In this document: in pieces, positions 13,001 to 55,889 of the stretch | Numbering within the stretch: the stretch's first letter is position 1 | Layout of the letters: each line of letters starts with the position of its first letter | Assembly (NCBI RefSeq): GCF_028368855.1 | Contig: NZ_JAQNCY010000001.1 | Span: 682,001-746,000 of the forward strand | DNA length: 64,000 bases | Direction of reading: 5' to 3' | Origin: Leisingera sp. SS27 | Lineage (GTDB): Bacteria; Pseudomonadota; Alphaproteobacteria; Rhodobacterales; Rhodobacteraceae | Program-made: the position numbers and the translations under genes | Notes under the pieces: model-generated | Database searches by the model: none | Seen by the model: the letters and a program-made list of their open reading frames with translations, nothing else | Told to the model about the DNA's origin: nothing

Positions 13001-13053
13001 GAATGGTGGGTCGTGAGAGGCTCGAACTCCCGACATCTTCGGTGTAAACGAAG
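13001..13053. repeat. attL: 53-bp prophage attachment core (tRNA-Val 3' fragment)
   Basis: Bases 13001-13053 are identical to 55811-55863. The core spans the CCA end, T arm, variable loop and anticodon arm of tRNA-Val(TAC), on the minus strand. The 5' half of the tRNA is missing here, so this is the displaced fragment left when the phage supplied a new 3' end at the right junction. It sets the left prophage boundary. Confidence 0.95.
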
Positions 13054-24895: not shown

Positions 24896-25675
24896 TCACG
24901 TCTTGATCAGCCAATTGACGCCCAAAACCGGCGGCAGAATGCTGAAAGCGTTGCCCGAGCCTGCGCTATTGACAGTGATCCCGGTGGTTGCTGTGGAGTT
25001 CGTGCCGCCCGCTGTTGCGTTACCGACCGTCACGCCAGTAGAGGCGCTGTCCACCGTCACGCCCGTTGTAGCGCTGCCTGAGGTGCCGCCCCCGGTGGCT
25101 GATGTAACATCTGCGCCTGTCGCCGCATCCGCCGCCCCTGCTGCCTCATCAACGCTGTGCGTATGGCCTGGGTCTGTAACCGTGTGGTCGTGCCCCGGAT
25201 CGGTAACCGTATGATTGTGCGGCGTGCCGGTGAATGTGTGGGTGTGCCCCGGATCGGTGATCCCGTGCGAGTGTGCCGGCATGTTCGCAGTCGTAAGCGT
25301 TTGGGTCAGAGCGCCCGCCGTACCCATCAGGGAAGCGGCGCCGCCAGCGCCCATCATGATCAGATCTTGCGCATTCGGCAGAGAAAACGACGCTCCCGCG
25401 CCTCCAAAGGTGTAGCCGATGACCGCAAACAGATCGGGATAGTCAGAGACGCTGAGGGACTGCCCGTCGCACAGCTTCCACTCCCCATCGTCAGGCTCCG
25501 CACTCGCCAGGGTGCAGATAAGTGTTCCGGTGGGCGGCCTTTGGTTTTCCTGCGCGTTCGTCCGGCGCAGCACTAGGTCAAGCCACTGCAGAAACCCCTG
25601 ATCTGGTGACACTCCACCGTCACGATTAACCCGGCCAATCAGGCCGCGCGGGCGGAAACTCGGAAGATCAGCCAT
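24896..25675 (-). CDS. Tail collar/fibre protein with histidine-rich HxH repeats
   Basis: 259 residues. Residues 45-110 form a phage tail-collar domain (GTLICTLASAEPDDGEWKLC, then PNAQDLIMMGAGG). Residues 128-172 contain HSHG, HTHT, HNHT, HDHT and HTHS, each set in DPGHxHT-like units. In trimeric phage fibres such HxH motifs bind iron along the fibre axis. The C-terminus is Thr/Ser/Val repeats and a final NWLIKT. Starts one base into the gp10-like stop. Confidence 0.8.
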   Translation of the reverse strand: MADLPSFRPRGLIGRVNRDGGVSPDQGFLQWLDLVLRRTNAQENQRPPTGTLICTLASAEPDDGEWKLCDGQSLSVSDYPDLFAVIGYTFGGAGASFSLPNAQDLIMMGAGGAASLMGTAGALTQTLTTANMPAHSHGITDPGHTHTFTGTPHNHTVTDPGHDHTVTDPGHTHSVDEAAGAADAATGADVTSATGGGTSGSATTGVTVDSASTGVTVGNATAGGTNSTATTGITVNSAGSGNAFSILPPVLGVNWLIKT

Positions 25676-27000
25676 CAGTTATACTTCACCCCGTAGATGT
25701 CGCGCTGCACCGCATCCGTGATGCGGATGCGGAACTGAAACCTCCGGGACGCCCCCAGGCCGTGCCAAACCACCCTGCGGAAGAACTCGCCAAGCGCGCC
25801 CATGGGCCGCCACCGCTCCAGCCCCCAAGTGCGCCCGTCTTTGCTCACCTGCAGCATCACTTGCCCCTGGCTGTTCACGTCGCCCGCGGCGATGTTCAAG
25901 TGCAGTCGGCTGATCGTGATAAAATCCGCCTCCACCAGCGGCACGGAAATGGCCTCCGCCTCAAGGTATCCGCCAAGATCTTGATAGGTGTCCGGGTCCA
26001 TCGTGGCGACATGCCCGGACACGGTGCCGACATAGAAGGTTCCGCCGTTGCGAACCGAGCAAGCCCCGTCAAACTCTGCCTCTCCTAGGCCGGTTGAGAA
26101 CTCGCACCACAAACCCGTCGTCAGATCGTAGGCCAGTGCCGGGCGGCCAGTCAGGCGAACTACGAAGAACTTATGCCCCCGGTCATCGGCAATGAATGCA
26201 CGCCCCAGCGCGGCCTCAGACAGGACTTCCTCCACTTCCCGTGTGCTGATCACTTGGGGCGATGTGCCGGAGGACCGATAGGCGCGCAGATCCTCGCCAA
26301 TCCAGAACACCGCGTTGTCCTCTTTGGCTGCTGTTCCCGCCGTGGCGCCGCGCTCGATCAGGGCGCCGGCGTTCCGCTGGAACGGGAAGGCCGCAGCGCC
26401 GCTGTTGTACCATATTTCAGTGGTTTTACTGCCGAACAGCCAGATCTCGTTATGGTCCTCGATGATCGCCACCAGGGCATCCGGCGCGTTCTCAGCGAAG
26501 GCGAAGTCCAGGGCACCGAAGGTTGTTCCGTCATCCAAACCGCTCACCGTCAGAGCATCGTCCCGCCCGCCGGATGTTCCGATCACCAGAAAGTAGCCAT
26601 CCATGAAGGCAACACCCTTAGGCGACGTCACGGCACCCGTGCTGTATTCCGTGGTCGCTGTGCCATCGCAGATGTAGTATTTGCCGCCCGCGACAATCGC
26701 CAATTCCGTGCTGCTGGCTGCCACTTGGGTCTGCTCATCATCCAGAACCGTGCCAACGCTCGTGGCTGTGCCCCCGCTGATCTTGTAGACCGTGCCGCCA
26801 GCCACTGCGTACAGCACCCCGGCCAGCGTCTCCATGGCCCGCACAGCGCTGCCAAGGTTGTGCTGGGAAAGAAGGCCTGACCTGCCAATCAGAACGCCTT
26901 GCGAATATCCGTCAGACGGGCGCAGAGACAGGTTTTTCAGCCGCTCACCGCTGTACCCCGGGGCGTCTTTGCTCTGCCGTGCGAAAGGGACCAGAGGCAC
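25675..27000 (-). CDS. P22 gp10-like tail accessory (packaged DNA stabilisation) protein
   Basis: 441 residues. The N-terminal MPLVPFARQSKDAPGYSGERLKN type of opening and repeated beta sequence (LFGSKTTEIWYNSG, AFPFQRNAGALIERG) match the gp10 family of tail-hub proteins in P22-like podoviruses, which seal the portal after packaging and hold the needle or fibres. It overlaps the gp4-like gene by 1 base. Assignment is based on recalled family pattern plus neighbours. Confidence 0.8.
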   Translation of the reverse strand: MPLVPFARQSKDAPGYSGERLKNLSLRPSDGYSQGVLIGRSGLLSQHNLGSAVRAMETLAGVLYAVAGGTVYKISGGTATSVGTVLDDEQTQVAASSTELAIVAGGKYYICDGTATTEYSTGAVTSPKGVAFMDGYFLVIGTSGGRDDALTVSGLDDGTTFGALDFAFAENAPDALVAIIEDHNEIWLFGSKTTEIWYNSGAAAFPFQRNAGALIERGATAGTAAKEDNAVFWIGEDLRAYRSSGTSPQVISTREVEEVLSEAALGRAFIADDRGHKFFVVRLTGRPALAYDLTTGLWCEFSTGLGEAEFDGACSVRNGGTFYVGTVSGHVATMDPDTYQDLGGYLEAEAISVPLVEADFITISRLHLNIAAGDVNSQGQVMLQVSKDGRTWGLERWRPMGALGEFFRRVVWHGLGASRRFQFRIRITDAVQRDIYGVKYN

Positions 27001-37260: not shown

Positions 37261-37336
37261 TGGTTGCGCGGGCCGGACTCGAACCGACGACCTCCAGGTT
37301 ATGAGCCTAGCGAGCTACCATCTGCTCCACCGCGTC
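37261..37336 (-). tRNA. Phage tRNA-Met(CAT), initiator type
   Basis: The reverse strand gives a 76-base tRNA with encoded CCA: D-stem GAGC/GCTC, anticodon arm CTAGG-CTCATAA-CCTGG, T-arm GTCGG-TTCGAGT-CCGGC. Initiator features are the 1:72 mismatch (G/A), A11:U24, and G30:C40 with G31:C39. Position 29:41 is A:U instead of G:C, and 2:71 is A/C. It lies between the NusG-like gene and the late structural genes. Confidence 0.85.
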
Positions 37337-39391: not shown

Positions 39392-39826
39392 TCATTCCGC
39401 AGCCTCCAGCACGTCCAAATGCACGTCCTCACCGGCTAGGACGGACCCTAGCGCCCTCCATTCCCGGTACAGGCTCTTGGCGTACTCAGCCTGTTTCCGG
39501 CTGGGCGTGTCGCCTTCCTTGACCAGCCTCATGAAAGACTTGCCAAACTGGTGACTGTCGGAGCCTTCGAGGGACCGCAGTACGTGGAACCACCAGCGGG
39601 CTGCTTCCTCCAGTTCCGGGTCTTTCAGGCCTGGGAAACGGTCCGCCGGGGCCGGTACGTCGTGCGGATAGTTCGATACCTTGCTGAGGAAGTTCTGGCG
39701 CTCGAAGGCTGGCAGCTTCTTCCACAGGGCAAAGAACAGCTTTTTGACAAGCACCTGCTCCTCGTTCTTCGAGCGGGCAAGACAGATAGCCTCAGCGTGC
39801 TTCAGGATGCGCAGCTTCGCGTTCAT
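39392..39826 (-). CDS. Hypothetical phage protein
   Basis: 144 residues, helical and basic at the front (NAKLRILKHAEAICLARSKN), with WWFHVLRSLEGSDSHQFGKS in the middle. It overlaps the methyltransferase stop by 4 bases (ATGA), indicating coupling. No family recognised. Confidence 0.6.
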   Translation of the reverse strand: MNAKLRILKHAEAICLARSKNEEQVLVKKLFFALWKKLPAFERQNFLSKVSNYPHDVPAPADRFPGLKDPELEEAARWWFHVLRSLEGSDSHQFGKSFMRLVKEGDTPSRKQAEYAKSLYREWRALGSVLAGEDVHLDVLEAAE

Positions 39827-41283
39827 GCTGCAGTCCTCATCTGCTCGTGGGAGATTTTGATCCGGTCGAGGATCCAGCCGACGCAAGGCACCGCCATGCT
39901 GTTGCCAAGCGCTTTGTATTGGGGGCCGTCAGCGGCGGGTTTGCCGCGGTAGGTGATCGCGCAGTGATCATCGGGAAAGCCCTGCAACCGGTGGCATTCG
40001 GCTGGTGTCAGGCGGCGCACGGCCCAGCTATCGGCCAGCGCTGGTGGATGTGCCCCTGCTGCAAGGGGATGGCATGGTTCTCCGGGCTGCGGGTTTGAAT
40101 AGTTCGCTGCGCTGGTAATCTGCGTGGTATCGAATGCCACGGCAGCGTGACCGCCGGCGTTCTGATGGCTGTTGTTGTGCCCCATCGATCGCAGCGGAGG
40201 CATCACGCCGGAGGTATCGTTCTGAACCTCCGTGCCCTTGCAGTCGAAGGCAACTGGCACAATTGGTGTGCCCCTTCCAGTACCGTCTTCGCTTGCGTCA
40301 AAACCCTCCCCGCGCAGGGAATGGGTGACCATGTTGAAACCGTCGGCACGGCTATAGTCGTCACACGTGGTTTGCAGGCAGTTTGCAACCTCCGCTGCGA
40401 TCAACCCCCCGTCGCAGTCGAAGTCTGTTCCGAGCCCACCACCGCCGTTAGTGCGCGCTGCAAGGGTTGGGGCAGGTCTTTGCCCCGCTTCTCGGCGCGG
40501 CGAAGTATCCCCGCGCAGGCGGTCTGGCTCAAGTAGTACCGCTGCGGGATCGACGCAGTTTCCAAAATCGATGACAACGAACACGCGACGGCGCCGCTGC
40601 GCCACTCCGAACCATTGGGCGTCAAGAACGGACCATGCTGCCCGTGCCCTTGGCCCCTGCACCATACCTTCACCGGGCCATGTGCATCGGTGGTGGGGTT
40701 CCGCTGTTTCGAACTCTCCTGTGGGCTCGCCATCGTCTCCAAGGATTTCGATTTCGCCGCCCTTGTGCCATTTCCAGAAAGCGTTGGATTTTCCTCGCTT
40801 TGGCCGGGGGCTTGGTAGGAGGGAATCCACTGCGCCGACAAGGCCTCCCAGGAAGCACCCAAAGGCGTTTCCTTTGTCGGAGAGGACGCCGGGGACGTTT
40901 TCCCAGAGGACGGCGAGTTTTCCATCAGGTCGAGCATCGACGATTGCATGCAGCAGCTCCACGAATGTTAGGGTGAGGTTTCCACGGTCGCCGTCCAGAC
41001 CAGCACGAAGGCCCGCGACCGAAAAATCTTGGCAGGGTGTGCCGGCGACGATCAGTTCAGGCATCAGAACGCCGCGCTCGCGCAGCAGGTCCGGCGTGAT
41101 CTCGGTCATGTCGCCCCACAGAAGCGGGTCGCCCTGGTTGTGATCCTCCGGAAGTTTGTATCCGAAACGCTCCTGCAGAACGGCGCGGGGGAACGGTTCA
41201 ATCTCCGATGCAAGGCGCCAGTCCACCCACGGGGCGGCCATTTCAGGGGCGCCGATGCCGGAACAGAAGGTTGCGCCGATCAT
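39823..41283 (-). CDS. DNA cytosine C5-methyltransferase
   Basis: 486 residues. Motif I FCSGIGAPEMA, motif IV GTPCQDFS with catalytic Cys84, motif VI WENVPG, motif VIII QRRRRVF, motifs IX-X at the C-terminus (GNSMAVP). The 200-residue variable region between VIII and IX sets target specificity, which is unknown. No restriction gene is adjacent, so it is an orphan phage enzyme probably protecting phage DNA. Confidence 0.92.
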   Translation of the reverse strand: MIGATFCSGIGAPEMAAPWVDWRLASEIEPFPRAVLQERFGYKLPEDHNQGDPLLWGDMTEITPDLLRERGVLMPELIVAGTPCQDFSVAGLRAGLDGDRGNLTLTFVELLHAIVDARPDGKLAVLWENVPGVLSDKGNAFGCFLGGLVGAVDSLLPSPRPKRGKSNAFWKWHKGGEIEILGDDGEPTGEFETAEPHHRCTWPGEGMVQGPRARAAWSVLDAQWFGVAQRRRRVFVVIDFGNCVDPAAVLLEPDRLRGDTSPRREAGQRPAPTLAARTNGGGGLGTDFDCDGGLIAAEVANCLQTTCDDYSRADGFNMVTHSLRGEGFDASEDGTGRGTPIVPVAFDCKGTEVQNDTSGVMPPLRSMGHNNSHQNAGGHAAVAFDTTQITSAANYSNPQPGEPCHPLAAGAHPPALADSWAVRRLTPAECHRLQGFPDDHCAITYRGKPAADGPQYKALGNSMAVPCVGWILDRIKISHEQMRTAA

Positions 41284-43660: not shown

Positions 43661-43969
43661 TCATGCCGCGCCCTTTTGCGTTTTTTTGACGCGGGGTTGA
43701 CCATCGCCCGCAGCGTGACCACATCGGTCATCATGAATAGAACGCGCCGCCATCAAATCGTGCCAGCTCAAAGGGATATTCCGTTTGCTGGCTCCTGCGA
43801 GGATGGCGAGGTCATACTTGCCGTCAATCGAACCGCGCTGATGCCAGCGGTGGATGGCGACAATTTCAATTTGATCGCTCGGGGACAGGCTCTCGTTGAC
43901 ATCGTCAAGGAGAGCCTTCCTGTTTGGCCATTTATCGATGATGGCTTGAGTGAGGTGCTTTTTGCTCAT
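43661..43969 (-). CDS. Cro-like HTH regulator
   Basis: 102 residues. The HTH region has IEIVAIHRWHQRGSIDGKYD and ILAGASKRNIPLSWHDLMAA, a Cro/CI-like pattern (a helix that includes the recognition motif H-RW-QRG). It is the first gene of the leftward transcript, and its start lies about 7 bases after the -10 box, so the mRNA is nearly leaderless. It probably competes with the short repressor for the same operators. Confidence 0.65.
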   Translation of the reverse strand: MSKKHLTQAIIDKWPNRKALLDDVNESLSPSDQIEIVAIHRWHQRGSIDGKYDLAILAGASKRNIPLSWHDLMAARSIHDDRCGHAAGDGQPRVKKTQKGAA

Positions 43970-43976
43970 GCCTCAC

Positions 43977-44006
43977 ACTATAATGACCATTTCGGTCATT
44001 CGTCAA
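43977..44006 (-). promoter_or_regulatory. Leftward early promoter
   Basis: -35 TTGACG (44006-44001) and -10 TATAGT (43982-43977), spacer 18. The spacer holds operator O1. Transcription would begin near 43970, at the Cro-like gene start. Confidence 0.75.
43983..43999. promoter_or_regulatory. Operator O1 (ATGACCATTTCGGTCAT)
   Basis: A 17-bp palindrome that lies in the spacer of the leftward promoter. It differs at one position from the consensus ATGACCATTTTGGTCAT. Confidence 0.75.
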
Positions 44007-44023
44007 CTCACCTGAATGGTTAT
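44007..44023. promoter_or_regulatory. Operator O2, weak
   Basis: CTCACCTGAATGGTTAT matches the consensus at 10 of 17 positions. Its phase (centre 24 bases from O1 and 22 from O3) supports a third, weaker site as in lambda. Confidence 0.4.
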
Positions 44024-44051
44024 TGAACATGAACACTTTGGTCATGATAGA
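44023..44051 (+). promoter_or_regulatory. Repressor promoter
   Basis: -35 TTGAAC (44023-44028), 17-bp spacer equal to operator O3, weak -10 GATAGA (44046-44051). The start point would fall near 44058, next to the repressor ATG 44059, making a leaderless mRNA. Confidence 0.55.
44029..44045. promoter_or_regulatory. Operator O3
   Basis: ATGAACACTTTGGTCAT matches the consensus at 15 of 17 positions and fills the spacer of the repressor promoter, so binding would repress that promoter. Confidence 0.65.
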
Positions 44052-44058
44052 TTGCGTC

Positions 44059-44373
44059 ATGAGCACGAGCACCGACGCACAACAGCAAAAATCCAAATTT
44101 GCACAGGAAATGCGCCCCGAAAGAATCGGGCAGCGCCTAAAGTGGCTCCGCCTTGCACTGGGGTTTCAGCCGGCAGAAATGGCTGACTTTCTCGGCATCG
44201 AACGCACCTACTGGTCGCGGATCGAGGGCGGCAAGCGAGCCACATCCAAAGAGCTTGCCGCCATCATTAAAGAGCGGTGTCATGTAACGATGGACTACAT
44301 CATCGTTGGTGAGCTGGGCGGCTTGCCTCTGGACTTAGCGAACAAGATCACAAAGATCGCCAACCAGGACTGA
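44059..44373 (+). CDS. Short XRE-family repressor (CI-like, no protease domain)
   Basis: 104 residues. One XRE HTH (IGQRLKWLRLALGFQPAEMA then DFLGIERTYWSRIEGG) and a short tail. There is no S24 autocleavage domain, so induction must use another route. Starts at 44023 (TTG) or 44044 are open, but ATG 44059 fits a leaderless transcript from the O3 promoter. Position next to the operators makes it the probable lysogeny repressor. Confidence 0.7.
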   Translation: MSTSTDAQQQKSKFAQEMRPERIGQRLKWLRLALGFQPAEMADFLGIERTYWSRIEGGKRATSKELAAIIKERCHVTMDYIIVGELGGLPLDLANKITKIANQD

Positions 44374-44540
44374 TGAAAATAGATATCATCAACAGATTGC
44401 CCTGACTTCAGCGCCGCCCGAGCAGCGAAAAAGAGCTTCAAGTTCCAGACCCAGTACAGCACTTATCTTCCCAATCGCAATCAACCTATGGACGACATGA
44501 GCGCACAGCCCACAGCACCTGTCAAAAGCACTTTTTGCCC

Positions 44541-44556
44541 GTCGTAAATTTTCGAC
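44541..44556. promoter_or_regulatory. Near-palindrome before the HTH-PAS gene
   Basis: GTCGTAAATTTTCGAC has arms matching at 7 of 8 positions and ends at the base before ATG 44557. It could be the operator of the HTH-PAS protein. It contains a -10-like TAAATT. Confidence 0.4.
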
Positions 44557-45243
44557 ATGAGCGGAAAGGGCGAGGCAACCAGACTAATACTGTGGCTAGA
44601 AGCGCAAGTCGAGAGCCGTCGCGCCGAGCTTGGCTTAAGTCTTGGAGAGGCATCAATTAAGGCTGGCAACAGTCGAGGCTACCTGTCCCGGCTCTTCAGG
44701 GACAAGAATGATATTGGCATTGCCCGCTTCCACAGGATCTGTGACGCACTCGGGATATCAACGTCTGAGCGGACGTCAGCTCTGGCACGGAACGATTTCC
44801 CCAGCCTGGATGAAATCACAGAACTTGTCGCACGCGGCGCAACCGAGGCCGAGATCCGCGCATTTGAGGATCATATCTTGGTTTATGCGGAGCCAGACGA
44901 TAGCGACAGCACCCTGCGGCTGGTTCACATGGGTAGCAGAAGCTTGGCCGCTCAAGTGATATCGACACGATCGCCATCGGTTCTTCAGAGGGCCGTGGAC
45001 GCCTTTCCAGATGCGTCACGCAAGAAACTGTTGGCCTCTTACCGAGTTGCGGCCAAGGGCGCGTGCATCATTACGATAGAACGCCTGTCAGCTCACCTGC
45101 ACGGGCAGCCTGGAGTAGATGAGTTGGTCTACAAACGGCTGCTGTTCCCCATCGCCTCTTTCGATGGCGCGCCAGGTGTCGGGATCTACGCTATCCCGGT
45201 GTCCAACTCAGCCAGGTTCATCACGTCATCCATCGAGGAATAG
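44557..45243 (+). CDS. HTH regulator with PAS-like sensor domain
   Basis: 228 residues. An N-terminal XRE-type HTH (LGLSLGEASIKAGNSRGYLS, RLFRDKNDIGIARFHRICDA). After a linker, residues about 120-225 look like a PAS-type alpha/beta domain, ending in strands such as GVGIYAIPVSNSARF. A ligand- or stress-sensing phage regulator is possible. It converges on the next gene and overlaps it by 58 bases. Confidence 0.6.
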   Translation: MSGKGEATRLILWLEAQVESRRAELGLSLGEASIKAGNSRGYLSRLFRDKNDIGIARFHRICDALGISTSERTSALARNDFPSLDEITELVARGATEAEIRAFEDHILVYAEPDDSDSTLRLVHMGSRSLAAQVISTRSPSVLQRAVDAFPDASRKKLLASYRVAAKGACIITIERLSAHLHGQPGVDELVYKRLLFPIASFDGAPGVGIYAIPVSNSARFITSSIEE

Positions 45244-45881
45244 CAGCACGCCTCATGATCCCCCCTTGTTTCAGGCGCAGGCGTTGACCACACTTGAGCG
45301 CGAGGGATGCAGGACATGAGCCCGAGTTGGAAACCGAACCCCCGGCGCAAATCCCGATCCTTGAGAAATGCGTAAAACTGGTTGGCGCGCCAAGTTATCG
45401 CCGCATGGTACAATGCCGCTCGGCCAAAATCCTCAACGGCTTTCAGCTTCCGCAATTCGGGGCTGAAGAAAAGATCGCCGAAATAGACCACATCACCAGA
45501 CAGCCGACCGTCAACCAGGCTGGATACTTCCTTGATGGTTGCAATGTCATTTGCGCCTGGATACTGCCGCTGGTGGATGCGCTTCCAGTAGTCGGAGACC
45601 CGCTCTCTGCCCAAGCGCTCCAGTTTGACGCCTGCCGCTCCAAGCATCTTACCTGAGCCGCTGATCGTCACCCAAAAACACCCATCGTATGTGAAGTCGT
45701 TTTTCTCTGGGGAAAGCGTAGGCGTCAGGTATGGCTTCCCAATCTCTAGCAGTTTCTCCGCCACAGATTGGTAATCGTGGGTCACACGGACAGTGCAGCC
45801 CTTTGCCTTCAGGCTGGACAGCCTGTGCGAGAGAGCGGCGGATAGAATGAATGCTTGCTCCGACATCAATACCTCGAACAA
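45186..45881 (-). CDS. Uncharacterised protein, possibly GNAT-like
   Basis: 231 residues. FWVTISGSGKMLGAAGVKLE and YFGDLFFSPELRKLKAVEDF with a following helix (GRAALYHAAITWRANQFYAF) recall acetyltransferase-like folds. No catalytic residue is certain. It is convergent with the HTH-PAS gene, so mutual antisense control is possible. The start is ATG 45881; ATG 45863 is also open. Confidence 0.5.
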   Translation of the reverse strand: MFEVLMSEQAFILSAALSHRLSSLKAKGCTVRVTHDYQSVAEKLLEIGKPYLTPTLSPEKNDFTYDGCFWVTISGSGKMLGAAGVKLERLGRERVSDYWKRIHQRQYPGANDIATIKEVSSLVDGRLSGDVVYFGDLFFSPELRKLKAVEDFGRAALYHAAITWRANQFYAFLKDRDLRRGFGFQLGLMSCIPRAQVWSTPAPETRGDHEACCYSSMDDVMNLAELDTGIA

Positions 45882-45960
45882 TTCATGACAAATGCCGCCT
45901 CGCCTTATAGCTGATTAACGACATTCTGCGAGCACCTTGAATCCGCTGCGGCATGTGTGA

Positions 45961-45977
45961 ATGTCCATTATGGTCAT
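45961..45977. promoter_or_regulatory. Operator O4
   Basis: ATGTCCATTATGGTCAT matches the consensus at 15 of 17 positions. Its centre is 31 bp from that of O5, about three helical turns, so both are on one DNA face. Confidence 0.65.
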
Positions 45978-45985
45978 TTTTCTTG

Positions 45986-46014
45986 TTGACTGTGACCATT
46001 TTGGTCACTACATT
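45986..46014 (+). promoter_or_regulatory. Rightward early promoter
   Basis: -35 TTGACT (45986-45991), 17-bp spacer that equals operator O5, -10 TACATT (46009-46014). It would start at about 46021, giving a 20-base leader before ATG 46041. This drives the operon that runs to the integrase. Confidence 0.8.
45992..46008. promoter_or_regulatory. Operator O5 (GTGACCATTTTGGTCAC)
   Basis: A 17-bp palindrome with perfect arms, exactly filling the rightward promoter spacer. Confidence 0.75.
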
Positions 46015-46040: not shown

Positions 46041-46373
46041 ATGACCGAAGAAGAACTTTCCAAATTCCTCACCGACAATTCTGCTCGCATCAAAGAGGCC
46101 GCCGTCGAGGCTTGCATCGAGAAGGTGCGCGACAATATCCGCTTTGGCCTTCCATCGTCCGTTCAGGACGTCGTTTCTGCATTCATGAAGGATGAAGTCG
46201 CTCCGGCGGTCGCAAAGGCCCTCGCCGGCGAGAAGGGTGCAATCATTGCTGCTGCTGTCTCCGGCGCGGCGAAGATCGGAGACGAGCTTTCGAAAACCAT
46301 GGTCGAGAACGCGGTGAAGAACATGACCGGGTACCGCGGCTCCGAAATCATCAAGGACCTGATGAAAAGCTAA
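46041..46373 (+). CDS. First gene of rightward operon, unknown
   Basis: 110 residues. Helical (ELSKFLTDNSARIKEAAVEA) with an Ala/Gly stretch (AIIAAAVSGAAKIGDELSK) that may be amphipathic. The ribosome site GGGAGAACCGAG is repeated before the next gene. Confidence 0.65.
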   Translation: MTEEELSKFLTDNSARIKEAAVEACIEKVRDNIRFGLPSSVQDVVSAFMKDEVAPAVAKALAGEKGAIIAAAVSGAAKIGDELSKTMVENAVKNMTGYRGSEIIKDLMKS

Positions 46374-54567: not shown

Positions 54568-54852
54568 ATGGAACCTGCACGACCATTTTCAGCCGACACC
54601 CTGGCAGAACGCTGGGGATGCTCAGCCGAAAGCGTCCGGCAACTGGCGCGCCAAGGCGCAATCAGATACTTCCGTGTTGGGAAGATGTACCGCTTCCCCA
54701 AATCCGCTGTTGAGGAATTTGAATGTCAAACATCAGGATCGGACGCCTCCGCGGCGGCCTCTGCGTCTACTGGGACGACCCGGACACCGGTAAGCGAAAG
54801 CGGTATCAGCTTGACTCACGCTCCAGAAAGGAAGCGGAAGCCGAGGCAATAG
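54568..54852 (+). CDS. Excisionase-like HTH protein
   Basis: 94 residues. Residues 8-52 are a MerR-like/HTH_17 excisionase fold (LAERWGCSAESVRQLARQGA with RYFRVGKMYRFP). The last 43 residues are Ser/Thr/Lys-rich and share 130 bases with the integrase gene. It has an AAGGAG site. Likely recombination directionality factor. Confidence 0.75.
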   Translation: MEPARPFSADTLAERWGCSAESVRQLARQGAIRYFRVGKMYRFPKSAVEEFECQTSGSDASAAASASTGTTRTPVSESGISLTHAPERKRKPRQ

Positions 54853-55739
54853 ACGTATTCCGGCGGGAGACCTTCAAGGCCACCCCTAAGGGCGCCGATG
54901 TGCAGCAGATCTGGGACGCTTACATTGCCGACCTGGGCGACAAGCCCACCGCAAAGACGATGGGATATACCGGAAAGGCGATCTTGCCGCACTTCGGCCC
55001 GTTCCTCCCTCAGGATATCGACAAGGCCCTGTGTCAGGCCTACGAGCGCGACCGCAAAGCTTCCGGGAAGAAACAGGGAACCATCTGGACGGAGCTGGGA
55101 CACCTGCAGAGCGCCCTGAACTTCGGCAAGAAGGTCCGCATGATCGAGGGGGAGACGCCTCATATATGGCGGCCCGCCAAACCTGAAGGTGACAAGCGCA
55201 TCCTGAACGCCGGAGAGATACGCGCGCTCATCAGCGCTGCTCATGATCCGCACATTCGGCTTGCCCTGATCCTACTTCTAAGCACCGCTGCACGTGTCGG
55301 CGCAGTGCTAGATCTGACGTGGGACCGGATCGACCTTGAGCGCGGCGTGATCAATCTGCGCCGGGAGGATGGGGCGACCCGCAAGGGCCGGGCCGTGGTG
55401 CCGATGAACGCCAGCACCAGGGCCGCGCTGCAGACCGCGAACGACATGGCAATGAGCGATTACGTGGTTGAATATGCTGGCGGGCCGGTCAAGAGCATCC
55501 GCAAGGGCGTTTCAAATGCGATCGATCGATCCAAGATCGGCCACGTGACCATCCACGAGCTGCGCCACACCGCCGCGGTGCACTTGCTGGGCGCGGGCAT
55601 ACCGATAGAGAAAGTCTCGCAGTACCTGGGCCACAGCAACGTGCAGATCACGTTCAAGACCTACGCCCGATTCCTGCCGGATCAGATGCAGGATGCCGCC
55701 GAAGTGCTGGATTTCATGAACTTCAGAAAGGCGAACTAG
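54723..55739 (+). CDS. int: Tyrosine-recombinase integrase
   Basis: 338 residues. A SAM-like core-binding domain (about 58-145) and the catalytic domain with R191 (STAARVGA), H278 and R281 (HELRHTA), H304 (GHS) and nucleophile Y314 (FKTYARF). It integrates the phage at the tRNA-Val core 71 bases downstream. Translation overlaps the excisionase gene. Confidence 0.95.
   Translation: MSNIRIGRLRGGLCVYWDDPDTGKRKRYQLDSRSRKEAEAEAIDVFRRETFKATPKGADVQQIWDAYIADLGDKPTAKTMGYTGKAILPHFGPFLPQDIDKALCQAYERDRKASGKKQGTIWTELGHLQSALNFGKKVRMIEGETPHIWRPAKPEGDKRILNAGEIRALISAAHDPHIRLALILLLSTAARVGAVLDLTWDRIDLERGVINLRREDGATRKGRAVVPMNASTRAALQTANDMAMSDYVVEYAGGPVKSIRKGVSNAIDRSKIGHVTIHELRHTAAVHLLGAGIPIEKVSQYLGHSNVQITFKTYARFLPDQMQDAAEVLDFMNFRKAN

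Positions 55740-55810: not shown

Positions 55811-55889
<79 letters not shown>

Follow-up and report, generated by a model that had tools for sequence, protein, structure and literature searches.

The immunity region of phage lambda contains the cI and cro genes and the operator clusters OR and OL, with the operators OR1, OR2 and OR3 spaced at 24 and 23 bp and the rexAB genes lying beyond the repressor gene. In the Arc system of phage P22 the operator is placed between the -35 and -10 boxes of one promoter.

The telomere phage PY54 produces cI and cro mRNAs that are leaderless, beginning at the AUG, and its Cro binds a single operator (PMC4488713); in the lactococcal phage TP901-1, CI and MOR act together at a composite operator (PMC7250872). 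Repressors that need a route of induction other than self-cleavage, such as an antirepressor, have also been described (PMC10432266). For the Rhodobacteraceae a survey reports 173 putative prophages in 79 genomes (PMC8224337), and the word "operator" is absent from its main text, as it is from that of an article describing two temperate roseophages (PMC5488378). No title or abstract opening describing the layout presented below was found in the literature searched, and it may have been published elsewhere.

The present work concerns a stretch of 64,000 nucleotides from Leisingera sp. SS27, referred to throughout as the window. The features that mark the integration of a phage within it are as follows.

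13001-13053 and 55811-55863: att repeat of 53 bp, overlapping tRNA-Val
54723-55739, plus strand: phage integrase (PF00589, 4e-21), adjoining the att repeat over tRNA-Val
55814-55889: tRNA-Val (TAC)

The 53-bp repeats over tRNA-Val, together with the integrase, delimit a prophage of about 42.8 kb. By its sequence the region studied here is the immunity region of this temperate phage, whose integration site is the tRNA-Val gene of a Leisingera-group strain, and the lysogeny switch of the original prediction is supported by the repeats and the integrase. The region is very probably organized as a mirrored version of the lambda type, in which operators lying within promoter spacers are read by a repressor of 104 residues. 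The prophage also contains a tRNA-Met (CAT) gene at 37261-37336, a match to the phage stabilisation protein PF11134 at 25675-27000 (1.5e-6), which is taken here to suggest P22-like tail genes, and a cytosine-5 DNA methyltransferase gene at 39823-41283 on the minus strand (PF00145, 7e-26), which runs in the same direction as the leftward promoter of the switch. The switch region, 44001-46000, has a G+C content of 0.543, the lowest among the 2-kb bins of the window.

The likeness to lambda lies in the arrangement: in the window too the repressor and Cro-like genes diverge around three operators, of which the one at 44007 is weak, and here too a second operator cluster is present past the repressor and two extra genes, at an early promoter pointing away. 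The spacing of the three intergenic operators, 24 and 22 bp, is close to the 24 and 23 bp of lambda. Unlike the lambda repressor, however, that of the window has only 104 residues, and no oligomerisation or self-cleavage domain was found in it; the window operators, aligned in register with the -35 box, fill the spacer, and the downstream cluster consists of two sites 31 bp apart. The placement of the operator in the spacer is shared with P22 Arc, which differs in protein fold and in having a single promoter. With TP901-1 the region shares a small switch with two divergent promoters and a repressor with a partner protein, a likeness of arrangement.

The genes of the switch region are listed here from left to right.

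43661-43969, minus strand: Cro-like protein of 102 aa, first leftward gene (open reading frame; small divergent reading frame in 16 of 17 loci, the window among them)
44059-44373, plus strand: repressor of 104 aa with an XRE-type helix-turn-helix (HTH) (PF13560, HTH_31, 35.2 bits against a cut-off of 27; phrog_2328 "transcriptional repressor", 7.7e-9)
44557-45243, plus strand: third HTH protein, 228 aa, with an HTH_3 domain, between the repressor and the rightward promoter
45189-45866, minus strand: protein of 226 aa, convergent with 44557-45243, the 3' ends overlapping
46041-46373, plus strand: first gene past the rightward promoter, 110 aa (open reading frame)

Genes for an ERF annealing protein and an exonuclease come after 46041-46373 on the same strand. 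A search of the repressor profile against solved structures gave PezA as the best match (5.2e-10), with the 434 repressor (5.5e-6) among other HTH chains; Pfam shows HTH domains only, with neither an S24 peptidase nor an oligomerisation domain found. For the regulators NCBIfam gave no match above cut-off, and PADLOC gave weak matches only, chiefly to general HTH proteins. The Cro-like protein of the window has no family match by itself in Pfam, PHROG or NCBIfam searches; when 13 Cro-like members were scanned (E<=0.05), four matched PF15943 (YdaS) and two P22_Cro (PF14549), all weakly, the window member being among neither. Its profile found no match among solved structures, and a single-sequence fold of the 43661 product was not used because its pLDDT of 47 was too poor. 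For the 226-aa protein neither a family nor a structure match was obtained. Within the order, 37 of 380 genomes carry relatives of this protein, and the host has three copies, the one at 45189-45866 included; at six more of its loci (L065-L070) a convergent reading frame with overlapping ends is present in each, and this partner resembles an HTH protein by eye in L065, L068, L069 and L070 and probably in L066, while the printed part of L067 shows none. The convergent pair 44557-45243 and 45189-45866 is taken here to occupy the place of lambda rexAB.

Three promoters are predicted in the region.

43977-44006, minus strand: leftward promoter (predicted), TTGACG-18-TATAGT, -35 box 44006-44001 and -10 box 43982-43977 (10/12 in a consensus scan; register conserved)
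44023-44051, plus strand: repressor promoter (predicted), TTGAAC-17-GATAGA, -35 box 44023-44028 and -10 box 44046-44051 (weak by consensus)
45986-46014, plus strand: rightward early promoter (predicted), TTGACT-17-TACATT, -35 box 45986-45991 and -10 box 46009-46014 (9/12 in the consensus scan; layout conserved)

The consensus scan, which gave three hits that include the leftward and rightward promoters and do not include the repressor promoter, offers weak support, because shuffled sequences already yield an average of 1.3 hits (sd 1.2). The operators associated with these promoters, none of which is assigned a strand, are the following.

43715-43731: operator inside the Cro-like gene, GTGACCACATCGGTCAT (matrix score 21.3 bits; kept in the near-identical copy L007)
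43983-43999: operator in the leftward promoter spacer (OR1-like), ATGACCATTTCGGTCAT (mismatch search; matrix, 22.2 bits; conserved register)
44007-44023: weak middle operator (OR2-like), CTCACCTGAATGGTTAT (7.7 bits, tail p 0.0005; recurs in relatives)
44029-44045: operator in the repressor promoter spacer (OR3-like), ATGAACACTTTGGTCAT (mismatch search; matrix, 17.2 bits)
45961-45977: upstream member of the downstream operator pair (OL2-like), ATGTCCATTATGGTCAT (mismatch search; conserved pair)
45992-46008: operator in the rightward promoter spacer (OL1-like), GTGACCATTTTGGTCAC (mismatch search; conserved pair)

The 17-bp consensus ATGACCATTTTGGTCAT occurs at three mismatches or fewer at four candidate operators of the window, 43983-43999, 44029-44045, 45961-45977 and 45992-46008, where 0.04 would be expected by chance (the listing of matches showed five because 45961 matches on the minus strand as well). 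At two mismatches or fewer it has only four sites in the host genome (4.80 Mb in 30 contigs), all of them in this region. The claim that copies of this palindrome lie in three promoter spacers of 18, 17 and 17 bp can be read directly from the coordinates, since the spacers of the repressor and rightward promoters are exactly 44029-44045 and 45992-46008 and the 18-bp leftward spacer contains 43983-43999; the distance of 31 bp claimed for the last two operators is likewise that between the starts at 45961 and 45992. A position weight matrix built from the four sites and used to scan the window, a form of the check that had been proposed, finds a fifth site at 43715-43731 with 21.3 bits, the next site of the window scoring 12.3 bits; in 30 Markov simulations of 64 kb the best score had a mean of 13.3 and a maximum of 18.7.

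The positions of the start codons bear on how the two regulatory messages begin. The ATG of the Cro-like gene lies 7 nt past the leftward -10 box, and that of the repressor lies likewise 7 nt past its own. Among the 17 loci described below, the window included, the Cro-like ATG stands 5 to 7 nt past the -10 box in 13, the box being placed at 18-bp spacing and several of the -10 boxes in relatives being poor; the exceptions are L043 (33 nt), L045 (15 or 21), L047 (an ATG at 1 or a GTG at 7) and L046, which has no reading frame. From the gap of 5-7 nt the Cro-like message is predicted to be leaderless and probably starts at the start codon, and the repressor message of the window is predicted to be leaderless as well. 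In this predicted property the window resembles PY54, from which it differs in having several operators where the Cro of that phage binds one (PMC4488713).

Whether the layout is more than a peculiarity of one prophage can be judged from its recurrence in other genomes. Leisingera sp. ANG-M7 (L017) and an IMG/VR contig (L007) each encode a repressor with 99% identity to that of the window, and the L007 switch region is nearly identical to that of the window. A phage collection queried with the window DNA and the window repressor returned no match; queried with a relative (L022), it returned 46 records, all below 60% identity, of which two were inspected. Repressor homologues were found in 3 of 21 genomes of the genus (E<=1e-5), in 7 of 295 of the family, the source genome included (E<=1e-8), in 16 of 390 of the order and in 2 of 385 of the class (both E<=1e-14). 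From these searches 22 loci were kept after removal of the near-copies L007, L017 and L025 (L017 and L025 without base-by-base comparison), and L026, L057, L002 and L008 were left outside this set and inspected separately.

When the 330 bp upstream of each repressor were scanned automatically for TTGAC with six or more of eight palindromic pairs in the spacer after it, a leftward promoter of this form was detected in 15 of the 22 loci, whereas random intervals taken from these loci gave 21 hits in 4,439; the thresholds were set after the leftward promoters of the loci had been seen. L057 passed the class search (3.9e-17) without having the layout, so that the count becomes 15 of 23 when it is included. 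The loci of the 22 with a leftward candidate form a set of 17, in which L023 (with TTGTAA) and L046 (with 5/8 pairs) were accepted by eye. Inspection by eye also shows that L048 fits with a CTGACA box and that L050 and L056 fit at a shifted register, none of these three being added to the 17, and that L049 and L055 have no such layout. The palindrome begins one base past the -35 box in 16 of the 17 loci and two bases past it in L053, and its pairs peak at a single offset, with a mean of 5.9 of 8 pairs as against 1.1-3.6 at other offsets.

The downstream cluster recurs in the same way. An operator-like pair 29-32 bp apart is present in all 17 loci (31 bp in nine, 30 in five, 29 in one and 32 in two), although it is weak in L046 and doubtful in L053, because in the two sites of the latter the palindromic pairs number only 1 and 3 out of 8. 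The sequence TTGAC stands immediately 5' of the second operator in 13 of the 17, another -35-like hexamer does so in two more (L021 and L046), and in L022 and L053 a -35-like box lies one base further away. Among six homologues inspected separately, the pair is found in L026, a congener (31 bp), in the phage MW202785.1 (31 bp) and in Bradyrhizobium phage ppBeUSDA76-1 (32 bp), and it is absent in L008, L057 and L002. A third operator on the early-promoter side was sought across the 17 loci with their own matrices, and none was found in common.

The intergenic operators were evaluated by scoring each locus with the matrix of its own operators. Counted from the leftward operator, 13 of the 17 loci show a second site at +24 to +26 and 14 show a third at +40 to +46; 11 have both (p<=0.001). 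Control windows of 3 nt, which match the 3-nt window and not the 7-nt one, gave an average of 0.43 and a maximum of 5. It is by this scoring and by its recurrent position that the weak middle operator at 44007 is recognized; the sites of the original prediction are real, but this one had been missed. On the Cro side there is also a weak operator-like site at 43953-43969, 30 bp from the leftward operator (tail p<=0.001), and comparable sites at -29 or -30 occur in 5 of the 17 loci, the window counted.

In the simplest scheme, that of the original prediction, the repressor would occlude all three promoters in a single autoregulatory state, with no activation and no distinct role for the middle site, and this scheme is possible, if on the doubtful side: three of the four strong switch sites of the window do lie in promoter spacers and the 44007 site is weak, at 7.7 bits as against 22.2 for the OR1-like site, but a site at +24 to +26 recurs in most of the loci, and that of the window reaches one base, the first, into the -35 box of the repressor promoter. 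If instead 44007 is a functional operator, it would make the intergenic region a lambda-like trio and would leave room for both activation and repression of the repressor promoter. The "uniform" design that had been claimed for the three promoters is clear only for the window, its near-copy L007 and L043, where the operator can be seen in the spacer of the repressor promoter; in the other loci inspected there is no clear -35 box ahead of the third site, while the leftward and rightward promoters keep the layout.

The operator sequences themselves vary among the loci, with at least eight kinds of half-site (including TGACC, TGGAC, TCGA, GGAGA, TGGCC, TGGAA, GGGAAC and CTCACA) while the register stays fixed, and this variation may be used to ask which protein reads the sites. 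Across 15 loci (the 17 less L053, omitted on account of its operator, and L046, for which no Cro-like reading frame was found), operator distance correlates with the distance between repressor recognition helices with a Mantel r of 0.75, and nearly as highly, at 0.70, with the rest of the repressor; once the latter is held constant, the partial Mantel r for the helix is 0.49 (p 0.0002), in a test that corrects only partly for the relatedness of the loci to one another. The helix RTYWSR occurs in five loci, all of which have TGACC half-sites. This covariation points to the 104-residue repressor as the reader of the sites.

The same analysis may be applied to the Cro-like product of 43661, which could itself be the main reader of the 17-bp sites in place of the 44059 repressor. 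It is encoded by a small divergent reading frame in nearly every locus (the window protein is matched in 9 of the 16 others by tblastn at E<=1e-3), and the distance between Cro-like HTH segments, aligned for 13 of the 16 reading frames with L022, L053 and L054 excluded, correlates with that between operators at r 0.54, which becomes 0.41 (p 0.0015) when the remainder of the repressor is controlled for. When the repressor helix is held constant, however, the correlation falls to 0.28 (p 0.024), while that of the helix retains 0.66 with the Cro-like HTH held constant. Individual loci point in the same direction: the Cro-like HTH is nearly the same in L024 and L047, whose operators differ, while the window and L043 share an operator and eight of nine repressor-helix residues although their Cro-like HTH differs at 57% of aligned positions. 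Reading chiefly by the Cro-like protein is thus improbable, and the 104-residue repressor, to which the original prediction had assigned the switch, appears the likelier reader of the two.

The third HTH protein (44557, 228 aa) might also be supposed to control the sites, given its place between repressor gene and rightward promoter and its HTH_3 domain. Among the loci compared, however, it has a homologue only in L007 and L043 (tblastn, E<=1e-3), a reading frame of 245 aa in the corresponding place of L053 being HTH-like by eye, and the operator layout exists in loci that have no homologue of 44557. Control by this protein, which is very improbable, was rejected on these two grounds, the rarity of the homologues across loci and the persistence of the layout where they are missing.

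With the 104-residue repressor as reader, the working of the switch may be set out as follows. The order of the region runs from the Cro-like and further leftward genes through their promoter, with OR1 at 43983, OR2 at 44007 (weak) and OR3 at 44029, to the repressor promoter and the repressor, and onward through the two extra genes to OL2 at 45961, OL1 at 45992 and the early promoter, which faces the recombination genes and the integrase. Dimers of the repressor would occupy the 17-bp palindromes between the -35 and -10 boxes, and, because the operators are placed there, bound repressor and RNA polymerase would be mutually exclusive at the leftward and rightward early promoters. The separation of the early-promoter operators, about three helical turns, suggests co-operative binding on one face of the DNA. 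The geometry suggests that OR2 would aid the repressor promoter and that at a high level of repressor OR3 would shut it. Since no S24 peptidase domain was found in the repressor, induction should need a route other than self-cleavage, for example an antirepressor.

Taken on its sequence features, the region appears to be a lysogeny switch of a known kind, in a variant marked by a minimal repressor, a fixed register of the spacer operators and changing specificity. It may be proposed, tentatively and at somewhat less than even confidence, that it belongs to a family of switches around the Leisingera group in which the promoter chassis is fixed to the base pair while operator and recognition helix change together, giving repressor-operator pairs that are blind to one another, and in which the Cro-like partner need not read the same sites. 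The combination of a fixed register with varied operators would let the repressor-operator code be read from genomes, and such a code would predict which prophages share immunity. The system would also test how far a minimal repressor reaches lambda-like logic.
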